Source: Rhodospirillaceae bacterium (lineage in GTDB: Bacteria > Pseudomonadota > Alphaproteobacteria > Rhodospirillales > Rhodospirillaceae). Taken from it: a DNA stretch of 64,000 bases. Each line of letters begins with the position of its first letter. Position 1 is the stretch's first letter. The translations under genes were made by a program, and so were the position numbers. The notes under the pieces were generated by a model, which was given only the letters and a program-made list of their open reading frames with translations, did no database searches and was not told the DNA's origin. Of the stretch, positions 15-12,639 are shown piece by piece. The stretch spans positions 86,756 to 150,755 of the forward strand of contig SHWP01000001.1 of NCBI GenBank assembly GCA_009693785.1. Direction: 5' to 3'.

Positions 15-281
15 TTAGCCCTTGGCGGCTTTGACGATTTTTTCCACGGCGAGGCCCAGGTGCTGAATGGTCGCGATATCCGGTAAAATGTTCATCGGTA
101 CCGAGATATCGAACCGGTCCTCGACCGTCGCCACGAACTCCATCACCACCAGGGAATCGAAATTCAGGTCTTCGCTGAATCGCGTCTCTGGCTTGAGGTC
201 CACTCCGGTTTTGTTGAACGGCTTCAGAAGCTCATAAAAGGCCGCGAACGTGTCCGGCGACAGTTCACCGTTCGCAGTCAT
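15..281 (-). CDS. Acyl carrier protein, probably dedicated to sphingolipid synthesis (AcpR-like)
   Basis: Translation from ATG at 281 (MTANGELSPDTF...) has the phosphopantetheine-site motif DLNFDSLVVMEF. It lies directly downstream of an epimerase and an AMP-ligase on the same strand. Confidence 0.85.
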   Translation of the reverse strand: MTANGELSPDTFAAFYELLKPFNKTGVDLKPETRFSEDLNFDSLVVMEFVATVEDRFDISVPMNILPDIATIQHLGLAVEKIVKAAKG

Positions 282-392
282 GACCCTGAAACCAATCCTA
301 CCCAAACCATGTTCAACCGAGCGCCTTCTTGGGCGGGCGCGGGGGCTTAGCCTTCCCATTGGGTGGGGTAGAGCCAAAAATGACAAATCAAC

Positions 393-1355
393 TTAGCTGT
401 AACTCTTTAACAAACCTTGTGAAATTGCCCAATTCACGGTGTTTTTGAAGCCCTTGGCCAAGTCCCACTGGGGCGTCCAGCCAGGTACGGACGGGCCCTG
501 GGCGACCCAATCGGGGTGGAGAAGCTCGGGCACTTTGCCCCAACTCAAGATCGAAGGCCGTCCGGTGACTTGTGCCACCAGTGAGCCAATGGCCCCACCC
601 AGGTACATCGCCATGGCCGGTATCGGGATCAGGGTCGGGGTTGTCTGCAGGGCATGGCCCGCTGCCGTGACCACGCCAGGCCAATCATGCCCGCCGGGCT
701 GGCCATCGTCGATTTCCAGGGGCTCACCCATGTCATCGCGCAGGGGCATCAGGTTCAATATGGCGCTGACCAGATCCTCCACATGGATGATCGAGAAGCG
801 CGCGTTAACAACCGATGGGGCCAGCGCGAAACCTCGCGCGGCCATGGCGAATAGGCGCAAGGTCTCGGTATCGCCGGGGCCATAGACAGCGGGCGGGCGC
901 AAAATGCTCACCGACATTTTGGGCCGCAATGCTGCCACGGCTTTTTCGCCTTCGCGTTTACTGGCGGCATAGGCCGATAGGCGTGGCTCGCGCGCGGCCA
1001 GCGAGGACACATAAATAAACCGGGGCGGATTTTTTTGCCCCGCCGCGATCGCAGCGATCCGTCTGGTGCCTTCAGTATTGTCCCGCAAAAAATGCTCACG
1101 GCTCAAAGCCTTGATGGCGCCTGCCATATGAATCACTCCATCGCACCCCGCAAGCAGTTCGCCAATTGCCCGGTCATCATCCAGCGAGCCAGGCACCCAA
1201 GTCAGGGGGCCTAGAAGGTTTTCAGGGGTCGAGGGCTGCGCGCGGCGCGTCAGCGCCTTAACGCCTGCTCCATCGCGGCGCAAGGCGCGCACCAAATGCT
1301 GGCCAATAAACCCGGTGGCGCCCGTGACAGCAATGGTGACAACGGGATGTGACAT
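393..1355 (-). CDS. NAD-dependent epimerase/dehydratase, candidate ceramide reductase (CerR-like)
   Basis: N-terminal Rossmann motif VTGATGFIGQHLVRAL; YAASKREGE active-site-like motif; position between ACP and acyl-AMP ligase. Confidence 0.8.
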   Translation of the reverse strand: MSHPVVTIAVTGATGFIGQHLVRALRRDGAGVKALTRRAQPSTPENLLGPLTWVPGSLDDDRAIGELLAGCDGVIHMAGAIKALSREHFLRDNTEGTRRIAAIAAGQKNPPRFIYVSSLAAREPRLSAYAASKREGEKAVAALRPKMSVSILRPPAVYGPGDTETLRLFAMAARGFALAPSVVNARFSIIHVEDLVSAILNLMPLRDDMGEPLEIDDGQPGGHDWPGVVTAAGHALQTTPTLIPIPAMAMYLGGAIGSLVAQVTGRPSILSWGKVPELLHPDWVAQGPSVPGWTPQWDLAKGFKNTVNWAISQGLLKSYS

Positions 1356-1364
1356 GCCAGCGCC

Positions 1365-3113
1365 TTATGCCGCCGCATCGAGCGATTGAATCTCGCCGGC
1401 CTCGAACATGGTCTTGGCTTTGCCGCGCGCGAGCTTGCCCGAGGTTGTCTTGGGCAAGCTGCGGGCCGGAACCAGCACTACATCACAGAGAATGCCCACG
1501 GCATCTTGAACCCGAGCCTTGACGTCGGCGACAAGTTTCGCTCGCTCTTCGGCTTTGGTGGCGCGGCACTGGACCAAGATCGTCGGTTTTTCATTGCCCT
1601 GGGCATCCACCAGCACAATGGCGGCAGAATCGCCCGAGCGCATGTCGTCCATGTGCTCGACGGTCCATTCAATGTCTTGGGGCCAGACGTTGCGGCCATT
1701 GACGATCATCATGTCCTTGGCGCGGCCGACGATGACGATTTGTTCACCAAGCCAATAGCCAAGATCGCCGGTATCAAGCCAGCCATCGATTAGGGCTTCG
1801 GCGGTGGCCCCGGGATTGTTGTAATAACCAGTCATGACGCTAGGCCCAGAGAAAAACACCCGGCCGATCTCGCGCTCACCCAGAACATGCCCATCGTCGA
1901 TATCGCGCACCTCAAGCTTGTGGCCTTTGATCACGACACCGCAACCGACAAACGTACGCCCCACATGCGATCCATCATCGGGTAAGGGTGTTGCCCTGTG
2001 AGTGGCCAAGCCATCCTTGGCGATGTGGTCGAGCGTCATGCCCGTCATGGGCCGCGAGAACGACACGCCAAGCACGCACTCAGCCAAGCCATAGCTTCCA
2101 CAAAAGGCCTTGTCGGAGAATCCGTAGGGTTTGAACGTCTCGCCAAATAATTTCATCACTTGCGGCTTGATCATCTCTCCGCCAATCCCGGCGATGCGCC
2201 AGCTCGACAGATCAACGCCAACCGAACCCTCAGGCATGGTTTGCACTCGCCGGGCGCACAACTCGTAGCCAAACGATGGCGAGAACGACATCGTACCGCG
2301 ATTCTCGCTCATCAGTCTCAGCCAGGTGAGCGGGCGGCGGGCGAAATCCTCGGTTGCAAGATAATCGGTCGATGTTTGCCCGGCCATCACGGCCAGCATG
2401 AAGCCGACCAAGCCCATGTCATGAAAAAACGGCAGCCACGACACCGCGCGTTCGCCAGGCCGGTTATCCACGGCATGGTTCATGGCCGCGCAGTTTTTCA
2501 TCAGCGCGTCATGGGTCACGCACACGCCTGTCGGAAACCGCGTCGAGCCCGAGCTATATTGAATGTAAGACAAGTCGTTGGGGCGAGCGCGGTGCACATC
2601 GCCTCTGCCTTCGGGCCATGTCGCAATCTCATCGTAGGAACCCAACTGCTCCAGCCCGCCTATGTCAGCGGCTTCCTTTAACAACGGCAGAAAATCCACG
2701 GGGCCGAAAGCCTGGCGCGGCTTTGCGGACATAATTTGATTCTGGATTTGCGCCACATAGGCCTCGCGGCGGCCAAAGGCCGTGGGCAACGGCATCGGTA
2801 CGGGGATGACCCCTGCATACTGGCAAGCAAAAAAATGGATCAGGAACTGCGGCGAGGTCGCAGCCAAAAGCGCGATTCGCTCGCCTGGCTTTATTCCTGC
2901 CGCCGATAGGCGCAGCGCATGACTGATGGCCGTCTCGCGCAACTCCCGGAATGGTAGGGTCAAGGCCAGCTCGCCGCGTGCTGAATAGAAATTGAATCCA
3001 GTCTCACCGCGTGCGGCATAGTCCAAGGCTGCCGTTAGGTTCTCGAAGTCGCCGAGAACCTTGGGCAGAGTTTGATTATCTGTCGGCGTCGGCCGGCGCG
3101 GTGTGGTGGTCAC
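1365..3113 (-). CDS. Fatty acyl-AMP ligase / acyl-ACP synthetase (AasR-like)
   Basis: AMP-binding motif YIQYSSGSTRFPTGV typical of FAAL-type ligases; TGDLGYW and GRAKDMMIVNGRNVWPQDIE motifs; GTG start. Confidence 0.85.
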   Translation of the reverse strand: MTTTPRRPTPTDNQTLPKVLGDFENLTAALDYAARGETGFNFYSARGELALTLPFRELRETAISHALRLSAAGIKPGERIALLAATSPQFLIHFFACQYAGVIPVPMPLPTAFGRREAYVAQIQNQIMSAKPRQAFGPVDFLPLLKEAADIGGLEQLGSYDEIATWPEGRGDVHRARPNDLSYIQYSSGSTRFPTGVCVTHDALMKNCAAMNHAVDNRPGERAVSWLPFFHDMGLVGFMLAVMAGQTSTDYLATEDFARRPLTWLRLMSENRGTMSFSPSFGYELCARRVQTMPEGSVGVDLSSWRIAGIGGEMIKPQVMKLFGETFKPYGFSDKAFCGSYGLAECVLGVSFSRPMTGMTLDHIAKDGLATHRATPLPDDGSHVGRTFVGCGVVIKGHKLEVRDIDDGHVLGEREIGRVFFSGPSVMTGYYNNPGATAEALIDGWLDTGDLGYWLGEQIVIVGRAKDMMIVNGRNVWPQDIEWTVEHMDDMRSGDSAAIVLVDAQGNEKPTILVQCRATKAEERAKLVADVKARVQDAVGILCDVVLVPARSLPKTTSGKLARGKAKTMFEAGEIQSLDAAA

Positions 3114-4107: not shown

Positions 4108-4686
4108 CTAGTTCGGATTGCGACCGATAATTGTCATCACCAAGATCTTTGTGTTGGGCGTGACGCTCATTGTCAACGTGCGCCCATCAATCGTGGTTGA
4201 TGCGCTGCCGGACTGAAAGGCAGCTGGAATGTTTGCGTTGACCCAAACCTCGCCTTCCGTCCAATCTGGCAATGCCAGTTTGGCGGCATTCATCAATGCA
4301 TTCAGGTTTTTGACCTGAGCCAGCTTGTTGTTGTCGGGCATGTTGGCCGTCACGACGGCCGCGGCCAGGCCTTCGGGCGGGCCGATCAGATCAATTTTAG
4401 TCATGCCGTCCATTGTCTGGCCGATCATGCGCGAGCGTCCATCGGCGAGCGGCTTGAACTCGAACGTCAACTTATAGGGCGCCCGCTCGAAAACGGACTG
4501 CAATTGATCGCGGCGGATACCTAAATTGACATTGTCTGGAATGGCAATCTCGGCGGCAGGTGCTGGCGTTGGTGCGGCAACGACTTCGGGTTGTGGCGGG
4601 CGCGCTGCCTGCCGGGGCACGAAATAGTAATAAAGCGCGATCGCCAAGATGATGCCGTAGGCCGGAATGCGCCAATTCTTGATCAT
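4108..4686 (-). CDS. Hypothetical protein with N-terminal membrane anchor
   Basis: 190-aa ORF with a hydrophobic N-terminus (YGIILAIALYYYFV) followed by a Pro/Ala-rich linker. Confidence 0.6.
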   Translation of the reverse strand: MIKNWRIPAYGIILAIALYYYFVPRQAARPPQPEVVAAPTPAPAAEIAIPDNVNLGIRRDQLQSVFERAPYKLTFEFKPLADGRSRMIGQTMDGMTKIDLIGPPEGLAAAVVTANMPDNNKLAQVKNLNALMNAAKLALPDWTEGEVWVNANIPAAFQSGSASTTIDGRTLTMSVTPNTKILVMTIIGRNPN

Positions 4687-5233: not shown

Positions 5234-5333
5234 GAATTCACACCGCTGTGATTAGCCCGGATCGCAACAAAGGTGTTTAGTACAGCACAAGATCATCGCA
5301 TTCGGGCGCGGTTACCGTGCTGTCTGGTTTAAC

Positions 5334-5663
5334 ATGAGTTCAAGGCCATTTTTTCGCGAGCGGCTTTTTACCGCAGTCATTGCGTCTGCTGGTCTTGCGT
5401 CTGCTGCCCTGACGCCAGCCATGTCGCAAGAGTCCAGCAAGCCTGCCAAAGGTAAAGAAAAATGCTATGGTGTTGCTAAGGTGGGCGAAAACGGCTGCCA
5501 ATCCTTGAGCGGGGCTCACACTTGTGGCGGATGCTCGACCGTTAATTACAGCGGCGAAAATTGGAAATGGGTGCCCATGGGCACATGCCTAGAGATGGGC
5601 GGCCAATACGAACCTTTCGAAGGTTTGGGTAAACTTGCCACCACCACGCCGATACCAAAGTAA
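5334..5663 (+). CDS. DUF2282-like bufferin precursor (BufA-like), five-Cys variant
   Basis: Signal-peptide-like N-terminus, then GKEKCYGVAKVGENGCQSLSGAHTCGGCS...GTCLEMGG. Located upstream of DUF692/DUF2063 genes. Confidence 0.85.
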   Translation: MSSRPFFRERLFTAVIASAGLASAALTPAMSQESSKPAKGKEKCYGVAKVGENGCQSLSGAHTCGGCSTVNYSGENWKWVPMGTCLEMGGQYEPFEGLGKLATTTPIPK

Positions 5664-5863
5664 CGTGAGATTCTAACGCTCTCGCGTATGTGATGCGGCT
5701 TTGGGAACTTATCACAAAACTTTGATTCGAGATTCTACGCTTGGATCCTGTAACAATGCGCCTGCCGCGCGACGTGGGCCAACCGGTGTTCACATCGGCA
5801 CGGCCCTGCGGGAGCGACCTCACTCGTTGCGACCTCAATTCGTATCAACAATAGGAGACCTCG

Positions 5864-6166
5864 ATGTCCGAACTTAACCTCAAGACGCTTACCGCCGCCG
5901 TTGCTGGTGCGGTTGCGATGGCCGCGTTTGTGCTGCCCTCGGCTGCCAGCGCACAACAAGGCAAAGAAAAATGCTACGGCGTGTCGAAAGCCGGTGAAAA
6001 TCAATGTGCGGCCGCCAATGGTGCGCATAGCTGCCAAGCTCAATCGAAGGCCGATTTCGACGGTAACGAGTGGAAATATGTCGAAGCCGGTTCCTGTGAC
6101 AAGATGGGCGGCAAGACCCAAGCCTTCCAAGGCAAAGGCACGCCAATGGATAAAAAGGGCGGCTAA
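5864..6166 (+). CDS. DUF2282 bufferin precursor (BufA-like), canonical four-Cys
   Basis: Signal peptide, then GKEKCYGVSKAGENQCAAANGAHSCQAQS...GSCDKMGG; strong SD (AGGAG) before ATG. Confidence 0.9.
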   Translation: MSELNLKTLTAAVAGAVAMAAFVLPSAASAQQGKEKCYGVSKAGENQCAAANGAHSCQAQSKADFDGNEWKYVEAGSCDKMGGKTQAFQGKGTPMDKKGG

Positions 6167-6222
6167 CCCCTGACCGTTTCCTAAAGCTTGAGGCACGCGG
6201 CATTCTGGCGCGATTATCGGCC

Positions 6223-7113
6223 ATGACCGTGTCTCTGACTGATTCGACAAGCCCGGTTCCCGCTAAAGCGGGGATCGGGCTTCGTCTTCAGCACATGCCG
6301 ATGCTTGCGGTTGACCCGCAAGAAACGCCACCCCGTACGCCATGGTTTGAGGTTCACAGCGAGAATTTTCTCAATCCTGGCGGACCCCGGCAAGCGATGC
6401 TGGCCGACATCCGGCAGCGTTACCCCATCAGTTGTCACGGCGTCGGGTTATCGCTGGGCTCAGCCGAGGGCCTTGATCCATCTCATTTGCGCCGTCTCAA
6501 GGATTTATTTTCATGGGTGAAGCCTGCGCTATTGTCTGAACACTTGTCGTGGTCAGTGATTGACGGTGCGTATCTCAACGACCTCTTGCCGCTGCCCTAC
6601 ACTGAGGAAACATTGCGTATCGTCAGCGCTAATGTCGCCCGTGCGCAGGATACGTTCGGTCAACGCTTGTTGATCGAAAACCCATCGTCGTATCTCAGCT
6701 TCGCGGCCTCGACGATGCCCGAGTGGGACTTCCTTGCCCAACTGGTCAAGGCCACCGGATGCGGCCTCCTGCTCGACGTGAACAACATATATGTCAGCGC
6801 CAGCAACAACGCCTTCGATGCCCATGAATATCTCGCGCACGTCGATATGACAGCCGTTGGTGAAATTCACCTGGCCGGACATTCAATAGAGGACGAAGGT
6901 GAAGCGCGCGTGCTGGTCGATACCCATAGCACCTACGTGTGCGATTCTGTCTGGGCGCTTTACCGTGCGGCCGTGGTACGGCGCGGTCCCGTGCCGACGC
7001 TGATCGAATGGGACATGGATATCCCCGCTTTCGAGGAATTGCAGGCAGAAGCCGCGCGGGCACAAACTATCATGGACTCGCTCTCAAACCTGGCGCGCGC
7101 TCGTGTTGCTTGA
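6223..7113 (+). CDS. MNIO family (DUF692) enzyme, BufB-like
   Basis: Motifs AGIGLR, LSEHLSWS, IENPSSYLSF, LLDVNNIYVSA characteristic of DUF692. Confidence 0.92.
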   Translation: MTVSLTDSTSPVPAKAGIGLRLQHMPMLAVDPQETPPRTPWFEVHSENFLNPGGPRQAMLADIRQRYPISCHGVGLSLGSAEGLDPSHLRRLKDLFSWVKPALLSEHLSWSVIDGAYLNDLLPLPYTEETLRIVSANVARAQDTFGQRLLIENPSSYLSFAASTMPEWDFLAQLVKATGCGLLLDVNNIYVSASNNAFDAHEYLAHVDMTAVGEIHLAGHSIEDEGEARVLVDTHSTYVCDSVWALYRAAVVRRGPVPTLIEWDMDIPAFEELQAEAARAQTIMDSLSNLARARVA

Positions 7114-7864
7114 ATTACAACGTACGTTCCGAGCCACTGTCACCAGCCGTGATGACGCTGTGGCGCCATTGGTGCGCGCGGCCCATGGGCCCGTATCGCG
7201 GCGCATCGCGGTCTATCGCAATACTGTGCAAAAAAGTTTGATCGATGTGCTGGCGGTTGCGTTTCCCGTCACCCAGAGAATTGTTGGCGAGCGCTTTTTT
7301 GCGGCCATGGCGCGCGACTTCGTTGTGCAGCACCCGCCACGAGCGCCGCAATTATCATTGTATGGCGATGGTTTTGCCGCGTTCATTGCCGCACACCAGC
7401 GCACCCAAGGGCTGCCCTACCTTGCGGACGTCGCGCGCCTGGAATGGGCGCGTGGCGAGGCGTATTTCGCCGCTGACGCACCCGCTCTTGATCCCGCAGC
7501 GTTGGCTGCAATTGCGCCAGATCAACTGGTGAAGGTAAAACTCAACCCGCACCCGGCCACGCGGCTGATGACTTCGACTCACCCAATCCACCGGATCTGG
7601 GCCGTCAACCAGCCCGACGTGGCCGATGTTCCGGCCATCGACATGAACGTGGCGGAAAGTGTTCTTATTTCCCGGCCGCTTTATGAAGTGCATTTGCGCA
7701 AGATTACGCAAGCCAATGGGGCTTTTGTGGCGGCTTGCGCACAGGGCCAGATGTTAGGTGAGGCGGTGGCACAGGCCTTTGTCGCCGAGCCAGCATTCGA
7801 TTTTCAGGCAGCGCTGCAAGACCACCTGATCAACGGCACATTCACAGCACTTACTTTATCCTGA
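7103..7864 (+). CDS. DUF2063 putative DNA-binding-domain protein, BufC-like
   Basis: HGPVSRRIAVYRNTVQKSLIDVLAVAFPVTQRIVGERFF motif of DUF2063; GTG start overlaps the end of the MNIO gene by 11 nt. Confidence 0.9.
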   Translation: MLLELQRTFRATVTSRDDAVAPLVRAAHGPVSRRIAVYRNTVQKSLIDVLAVAFPVTQRIVGERFFAAMARDFVVQHPPRAPQLSLYGDGFAAFIAAHQRTQGLPYLADVARLEWARGEAYFAADAPALDPAALAAIAPDQLVKVKLNPHPATRLMTSTHPIHRIWAVNQPDVADVPAIDMNVAESVLISRPLYEVHLRKITQANGAFVAACAQGQMLGEAVAQAFVAEPAFDFQAALQDHLINGTFTALTLS

Positions 7865-11510: not shown

Positions 11511-12639
11511 CTACTCCGCTGCCGCCCGGCTTTCATCGGCTACCGGCAACCTTGGTGCTTCGGGGAAAACCCAGCCCTTCGGATCCTCGCGCCGGGTGGG
11601 GCTGGGAATCACCGCCGCCTTCACGCCCTTCATGGTTTCGGCATAGAGCTTGGCATCAAGCCCCCAGCCGCGCCGGTAGAGCTCATCGCGTTTTTTACGA
11701 AACGCGATCATCATGCCGTCGGATTGCACCGAGTACTCGTCTTGGGCGCGGGTCGGCAGTTCCAGCGGCGTCAGGCGGCTGATGACCTCGTGATCTTGCT
11801 CGAAGATCTTGATATTGCGCTTGTAGGTATCTCTGTCGAACAGCCGCGACGTGAAAAAGTTGCGCAGCGAAATCCAATGGGTAAGCGTCGTATTTTCATC
11901 CACCGGCGTGTTCACGTCGATCAGCACGTTGGACCATTTGGGTGTGATTTGAATGCGCAGCACGATGCACAGCCCCGCGATATGCCATTCGGGCTGTGCC
12001 ACCACCTCTTCGCGCTCAGAGCTGCGAATATATTTCCATAATCCGGAATAGGGGGTGTGCGCATTGCCAGGCGTGCTTTGGCGCTCCACTCCCCTTGTTC
12101 CATGTTGAAATTCTTGATCTCAGGGCGATTGCGGTTGCCAAACGAGGGGTGAACAAAAGAGGCGCGAGCAAAGTCCACGCCGTTCTCCACCACCCGGCCA
12201 TAATTAGCTTTCCATAAAAATGTCCCGCGCACTGGACGAAGCGCAGGGTTGTCGAACTCAGCGACGACCGGTAGAGGCGGGCGCTGCGCTGCAGGTGCGT
12301 CGCCTAAAAATACCCAACCCAGCCAAATCGTTCCTCAACCGGGTATGAGTCCACACGCACCCGCTTGGGCATGTTTGTGCCGGGGTGGGCGGGAATCTCG
12401 GTGCAGGCGCCATCGGCCTTGTAGCGCCAACCATGATACGGGCACTCGATGCAACCATTGTGCAGCCGCCCCCGCGACAAGGAGCCGCCGCGGTGAACGC
12501 AGATATCGCTGACGCAGTTGATTTTGCCCGATCTATCGCGGAACAGCGCGAAGTCATGGCCCAGCATGCGCACGTGCTTGGGTTTGTCATGGGGCACGTC
12601 GGCGGCATCGCATGCGACATACCAGGTATTGATCAGCAT
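11511..12639 (-). pseudogene. Rieske oxygenase alpha-subunit-like gene split by two frameshifts
   Basis: ORFs 12304..12639 (CVHRGG, CPYHGWRY), 11921..12232 and 11511..12089 are in three frames but together give one Rieske oxygenase. Frame changes sit near 12314-12317 and in the G5 run at 12051-12055. Confidence 0.85.

Follow-up and report, generated by a model that had tools for sequence, protein, structure and literature searches.

A predicted Buf1-type bufferin cluster of the Rhodospirillaceae with two diverged precursors, one carrying a fifth cysteine

Introduction

Where two different small cysteine-rich proteins are encoded in front of a single MNIO gene, the question arises as to whether both are substrates of that enzyme and how their production is controlled. 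Such a locus is found in the 64,000-nucleotide stretch of DNA analysed here (hereafter the window), which derives from a draft genome of the Rhodospirillaceae (2.95 Mb, 86% complete). Buf1 (DUF2282) bufferins have been described as modified by MNIO enzymes together with DUF2063 partners and as carrying Sec signal peptides; the central cysteines are modified, whilst the first and last are joined in a disulphide (Antoine et al. 2025, PMC12452194). As that work already mentions tandem precursors, and also precursors that stand alone and clusters that include a DoxX or sigma-factor gene (PMC12452194), a pair of precursors sharing a cluster is not by itself a novelty. The points that go beyond the known bufferins are a five-cysteine paralog and a dedicated pair of operator-like sites. 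The overall picture, namely a bufferin locus whose peptides would be modified, would buffer copper and would be made from co-regulated promoters, is given a probability of roughly 0.78.

Assignment of the cluster

The cluster consists of four genes:

5334..5663, plus strand: A1 precursor, DUF2282 (Buf1), 109 aa, five cysteines (Pfam, 67.7 bits)
5864..6166, plus strand: A2 precursor, DUF2282 (Buf1), 100 aa, canonical four cysteines (Pfam, 76.0 bits; alignment)
6223..7113, plus strand: MNIO (DUF692/MbnB_TglH_ChrH), BufB-type maturase, 296 aa (PF05114, 342.8 bits)
7103..7864, plus strand: DUF2063 partner (BufC / PME-type 1), 253 aa, GTG start (PF09836, 85.9 bits)

An earlier note on this DNA had placed the four genes at these positions on the plus strand, with an 11-nt overlap between the last two and a minus-strand Rieske oxygenase as the next gene, and had proposed a profile search for the three families. 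The gene calls agree on each of these points, the overlap running from the GTG start of the partner at 7103 to the MNIO end at 7113, and all three families are assigned above their Pfam cut-offs (22.4 bits for DUF2282, 25 for PF05114 and 27.2 for DUF2063). At the equivalent position in the sister genome G004 the overlap is 8 nt. The MNIO is recognized as MNIO_BufB (NCBIfam NF050167; 370 bits against a cut-off of 310), whereas its score with the HvfB profile, 235.6 bits, is well under the NCBIfam cut-off of 360. Membership of Buf2 (BufA2; 6 or 12 cysteines) was rejected, the precursors scoring 18.9 and 25.0 bits where 60 is required, as was a weak Hirudin match of A2 (E 0.09). A chance origin of the cluster is excluded by these profile scores and by the conservation of the cluster and its flanks at 18 loci of the family, and the locus is almost certainly a Buf1-type bufferin cluster as judged from its sequence.

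The AlphaFold model of the partner has a mean pLDDT of 84.6, and in a fold search its predicted fold resembled TglI (8hci, 8hi7) and NGO1945 (3dee), with E values of 4e-6 to 9e-5; on this model it is read as a DUF2063 domain joined to an RRE-like domain, of PME-type 1. The solved relatives of the MNIO in the PDB are 3bww, TglH and MbnB. His, Glu and Asp columns are conserved in the MNIO alignment, and by our own mapping its EWD motif is aligned with the ERD motif of 3bww, at the place where a catalytic Asp has been proposed for the relative FonB (PMC13097082). A fold search with the A1 model returned nothing significant, and a search by sequence for a solved DUF2282 structure found none.

Comparison with known systems

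The cluster resembles BufABCD, for example that of Caulobacter, in its four-cysteine DUF2282 precursor, MNIO, DUF2063 partner and gene order (PMC12452194), but differs in having two diverged precursors, one of them with a fifth cysteine, and a palindromic operator-like site before each. Neither a DoxX gene nor a sigma/anti-sigma pair was found within the cluster, whereas sigma/anti-sigma genes occur in some known Buf1 clusters and a DoxX gene, though frequent, is optional according to the published survey (PMC12452194). The statement in the earlier note that no DoxX gene follows is thus accurate for the cluster, but a DoxX gene exists elsewhere in the genome, adjoining a third DUF2282 precursor (see below). 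The gigPABT operons of Cupriavidus metallidurans and Legionella share the precursor, MNIO and DUF2063 protein (PMC10304878, PMC5413113); unlike the locus here, they hold one precursor and a DoxX gene (gigT), and in Cupriavidus an rpoQ/rsqA sigma pair lies nearby. Captophorins such as fontiphorin and oxazolin, secreted cysteine-rich peptides that receive 5-thiooxazoles, are likewise served by an MNIO and a DUF2063-RRE partner (PMC13097082), but their precursors are of the EGKCG repeat type, and the MNIO here scores as BufB rather than HvfB.

Two diverged precursors, one with five cysteines

Read by eye, the N-termini of A1 and A2 show a basic or short n-region, an Ala/Leu-rich core and an AxA/AMS-like end, from which Sec-type signal peptides are inferred on both. 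A1 has cysteines at positions 44, 55, 64, 67 and 85, and A2 has four. In an alignment of 37 sequences the invariant cysteine columns correspond to C44, C55, C64 and C85 of A1, and both precursors keep all four. The earlier note had correctly seen two cysteine-rich DUF2282 proteins but had overlooked the fifth cysteine of A1. This residue, Cys67 (codon 5532-5534), lies in the motif HTCGGCS, where relatives read HTCGGLS or HSCAGQS. A sample of 263 loci gave 191 distinct DUF2282 domains; among these, more than four cysteines were found only in the A1 proteins of this genus, and the resulting CxxC motif (CGGC) is absent from every other sampled domain. The five-cysteine A1 is present in all five genus genomes and its fifth cysteine is invariant: the A1 of G003 is cut by a contig end, yet the same CGGC is visible, and that of G002 has a sixth cysteine (CCG). 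From these sequences, A1 is a distinct five-cysteine paralog, so far known only from this genus.

A1 and A2 are approximately 40% identical. Within the genus, dN is around a tenth of dS for all four genes (dN 0.06-0.41 overall, 0.14-0.33 for A1 and 0.06-0.27 for A2); as dS, at 1.3 or more over the four genes and above 1.2 in the two precursors, is saturated, only the direction, dN below dS, is safe, and this direction indicates that each of the four, A1 among them, is under purifying selection. A precursor-domain tree built on 65 columns has low resolution. In it the five A1 rows make up a starred clade close to MNIO-linked precursors from another genus, the grouping of A2 with precursors of G020 and G036 is weak, and a third starred clade holds A3 (the third precursor, described below) with other stand-alone precursors.

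Distribution of the tandem and the putative substrates of the single MNIO

One MNIO was detected in each of the five genus genomes, and in a tree the enzymes of this genus fall into a single clade; given a single MNIO per genome, both precursors must use that enzyme if either is modified. The A1-A2 tandem is found in four of the five genomes. In the fifth, G001, the contig covers the whole site and carries only A1 before the MNIO, which shows that A2 has been lost, and A1, as the only precursor left there, is a likely MNIO substrate in that genome. In the wider family a cluster with one precursor occupies the equivalent chromosomal place, beside an acyl-AMP ligase gene; hydrolase and DUF427 genes adjoin it in many cases, and genera g2 and g5 have kept DoxX inside the cluster. 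Two DUF2282 genes near an MNIO were found only in two genus members and one Arenicellales locus among 80 MNIO loci from named genomes, a fourth flagged locus being a spurious double match. The Arenicellales locus (L109, 3892-4964) holds two near-identical tandem precursors, the product of a recent independent duplication.

The G001 locus also bears on the proposal that A1 is no MNIO substrate at all, but an unmodified secreted thiol protein that binds metal or acts in redox chemistry through its CGGC, so that A2 alone would be a bufferin. The uniqueness of this CxxC among the sampled domains and the placing of A1 and A2 in different parts of the precursor tree speak for such a role; A1 nevertheless retains all four of the cysteines typical of bufferins as well as a signal-like N-terminus, it shares its operator-like site with other bufferins, and in G001 it is the precursor that has stayed beside the MNIO. 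The proposal is therefore considered very improbable, and modification of both precursors by the one MNIO is preferred.

A third precursor and its DoxX gene

A further DUF2282 sequence, A3, lies apart from the cluster. On contig C44 a DoxX gene (PF07681, 56.6 bits) follows A3, which in the window genome is a 46-aa remnant without the signal peptide region or the final cysteine. The preceding LysR-type gene no longer encodes its DNA-binding (HTH) domain and is frameshifted relative to G004; sequencing error could account for the frameshift, but not for the deletions. The features of these loci are as follows:

G000, contig C44, L004 1489-2700 and L034 5750-6700: decaying LysR-A3-DoxX; DoxX still open, A3 cut at both ends
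L004 about 1740-1690 and L035 about 8840-8800, minus strand: conserved stretch GGTTATCGAAAC...CGGTATTAG

The LysR-A3-DoxX arrangement is intact in G004 (L035), and a precursor-DoxX pair is also present in G020 and G073. No MNIO gene was found near any of these loci, and the A3-DoxX locus raises the question of modification in trans. The GGTTATCGAAAC...CGGTATTAG stretch is shared upstream of A3, and because it differs from the sites before A1 and A2, A3 is probably under different control.

The decay of A3 in the window genome and the loss of A2 in G001 show that copies come and go, as would be expected if the tandem were a neutral relic of duplication, with A1 and A2 interchangeable and the second gene merely raising the dose. 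This is held to be unlikely: the two proteins share only some 40% of their residues, each is conserved separately over four to five species with dN low relative to dS, and the fifth cysteine of A1 is invariant.

Palindromic sites and predicted promoters

A1 and A2 are each preceded by an operator-like palindrome and a -10-like hexamer:

5238..5253, plus strand: operator-like palindrome TCACACCGCTGTGATT, 96 nt before the A1 ATG, conserved in the genus and family
5275..5280, plus strand: -10-like hexamer GTTTAG of the predicted A1 promoter, at a fixed distance from the palindrome
5712..5727, plus strand: second operator-like palindrome TCACAAAACTTTGATT, 152 nt before the A2 ATG
5749..5754, plus strand: -10-like hexamer TGTAAC of the predicted A2 promoter

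The palindrome, whose paired occurrence had escaped the earlier note, has the form TCACA-N4-TKTGATT. An alignment of upstream regions places it before A1 in four species, with a variant between A1 and A2; the A2 palindrome is conserved in G004 and diverged in G002 and G003. Across the full 2.95 Mb of the genome the pattern TCACANNNNTKTGATT matches just twice, at 5238 and again at 5712. The strict form TCACANNNNTGTGATT has 17 matches in 73 family genomes, 12 of them just upstream of a DUF2282 gene, against a single match for the reversed pattern used as a control; the other five, mostly inside unrelated genes, were taken as chance. Over 24 sites linked to precursors in five genera, a -10-like TATNAT lies 37 nt after the first palindrome base (T37 in 20/24, T39 in 24/24, A41 in 20/24). 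These sites share a common descent, so that the counts are not independent, and the lack of any further match in the genome counts for more as evidence. Transcription is predicted to start near 5287 for A1 and near 5761 for A2; if it starts 7 nt after the hexamer, the palindrome is centred near -42, the usual place of class II activators.

Palindrome uniqueness, precursor linkage and the constant spacing of the -10-like element together suggest that A1 and A2 probably have separate, co-regulated promoters. A single operon had been proposed by the earlier note, but the 200-nt gap between A1 and A2 and the predicted promoter of A2 mean that there may be two overlapping transcription units rather than one simple operon. 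An RNA leader or attenuator between A1 and A2 was rejected: folding gave a z-score of -1.28, and scans for terminator or promoter consensus performed no better than shuffles.

No conserved regulator gene was found adjoining the operons at 18 loci. The CopR/CusR operator, TGACA-N4-TGTCA (PMC12428095), is alike in its 5-nt arms, 4-nt spacer and inner ACA...TGT, but the arms here are TCACA/TGTGA and no membership is claimed. A CopR/CusR-like regulator was considered as the protein recognizing the palindrome, but the best candidate in the genome scores under the family cut-off, the site is absent at its own locus, and at the threshold used it is missing from two genus members that carry the bufferin locus. 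Regulation of the CopR/CusR type is thus no more than a lead.

The cluster might also act chiefly against something other than copper, either a different metal (gold or mercury) or a stress (oxidative or sulphur). The gig operons of Cupriavidus are induced by both gold and copper and have a part in copper resistance (PMC10304878), that of Legionella responds to both metals (PMC5413113), some bufferins are fused to MerC (PMC12452194), and no copper gene was seen adjoining the cluster. Copper, however, is the effect shared by the characterised bufferins and captophorins (PMC12452194, PMC13097082), and the 5-4-5 geometry of the palindrome is that of the CopR/CusR site, though again as no more than a lead. 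A main target other than copper is therefore judged to be of low probability, and copper buffering is kept as the working view.

Proposed mechanism

By analogy with the characterised relatives, both peptides would be modified and would bind copper. A1 and A2 would be made with Sec-type signal peptides and, in the cytoplasm, the DUF2063 partner would present the precursor to the MNIO via its RRE-like domain; the MNIO would oxidise the central cysteines to 5-thiooxazoles, and the modified peptides would be exported to the periplasm, where they would bind copper and buffer its toxic excess. A2 would act as an ordinary four-cysteine substrate, whilst in the diverged paralog A1 the extra cysteine, three residues after Cys III, would probably, if with less assurance, provide a third modified or metal-binding site. 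With a palindrome centred approximately 42 nt before the predicted start at each precursor promoter, the same site at both suggests that one regulator probably activates both; the MNIO and partner would also be driven from the A2 promoter.

Taken to its full extent, this would give a genus-specific five-cysteine bufferin in which Cys67 is a third MNIO-modified metal-binding site, one MNIO making two bufferins that differ in stoichiometry or affinity, and both being switched on from two copies of a dedicated bufferin operator by a new activator of class II type that is conserved among several genera. This joint reading is tentative, and is more doubtful than not. A natural pair of predicted substrates for one MNIO, one cysteine apart, offers a way to ask which cysteine becomes a thiooxazole, and a bufferin-linked operator and promoter common to several genera provides a handle for identifying a copper-stress regulator.

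Neighbouring genes

Several genes around the cluster may be recorded. A minus-strand gene at 4108-4686 encodes a 192-aa protein with no Pfam match that is conserved beside the cluster in eight family loci. Also beside the cluster, at 15-3113, are acyl carrier protein, NAD-epimerase and acyl-AMP ligase genes, which we take to resemble a bacterial sphingolipid cluster; the acyl-AMP ligase is present in 18 of the 18 loci compared. A second Rieske oxygenase gene (11514-12639, minus strand) is seemingly split over frames, with pieces at 11514, 11924 and 12307, possibly as a pseudogene or through assembly errors, and has an intact counterpart in G004 (L036, 13682-14812).
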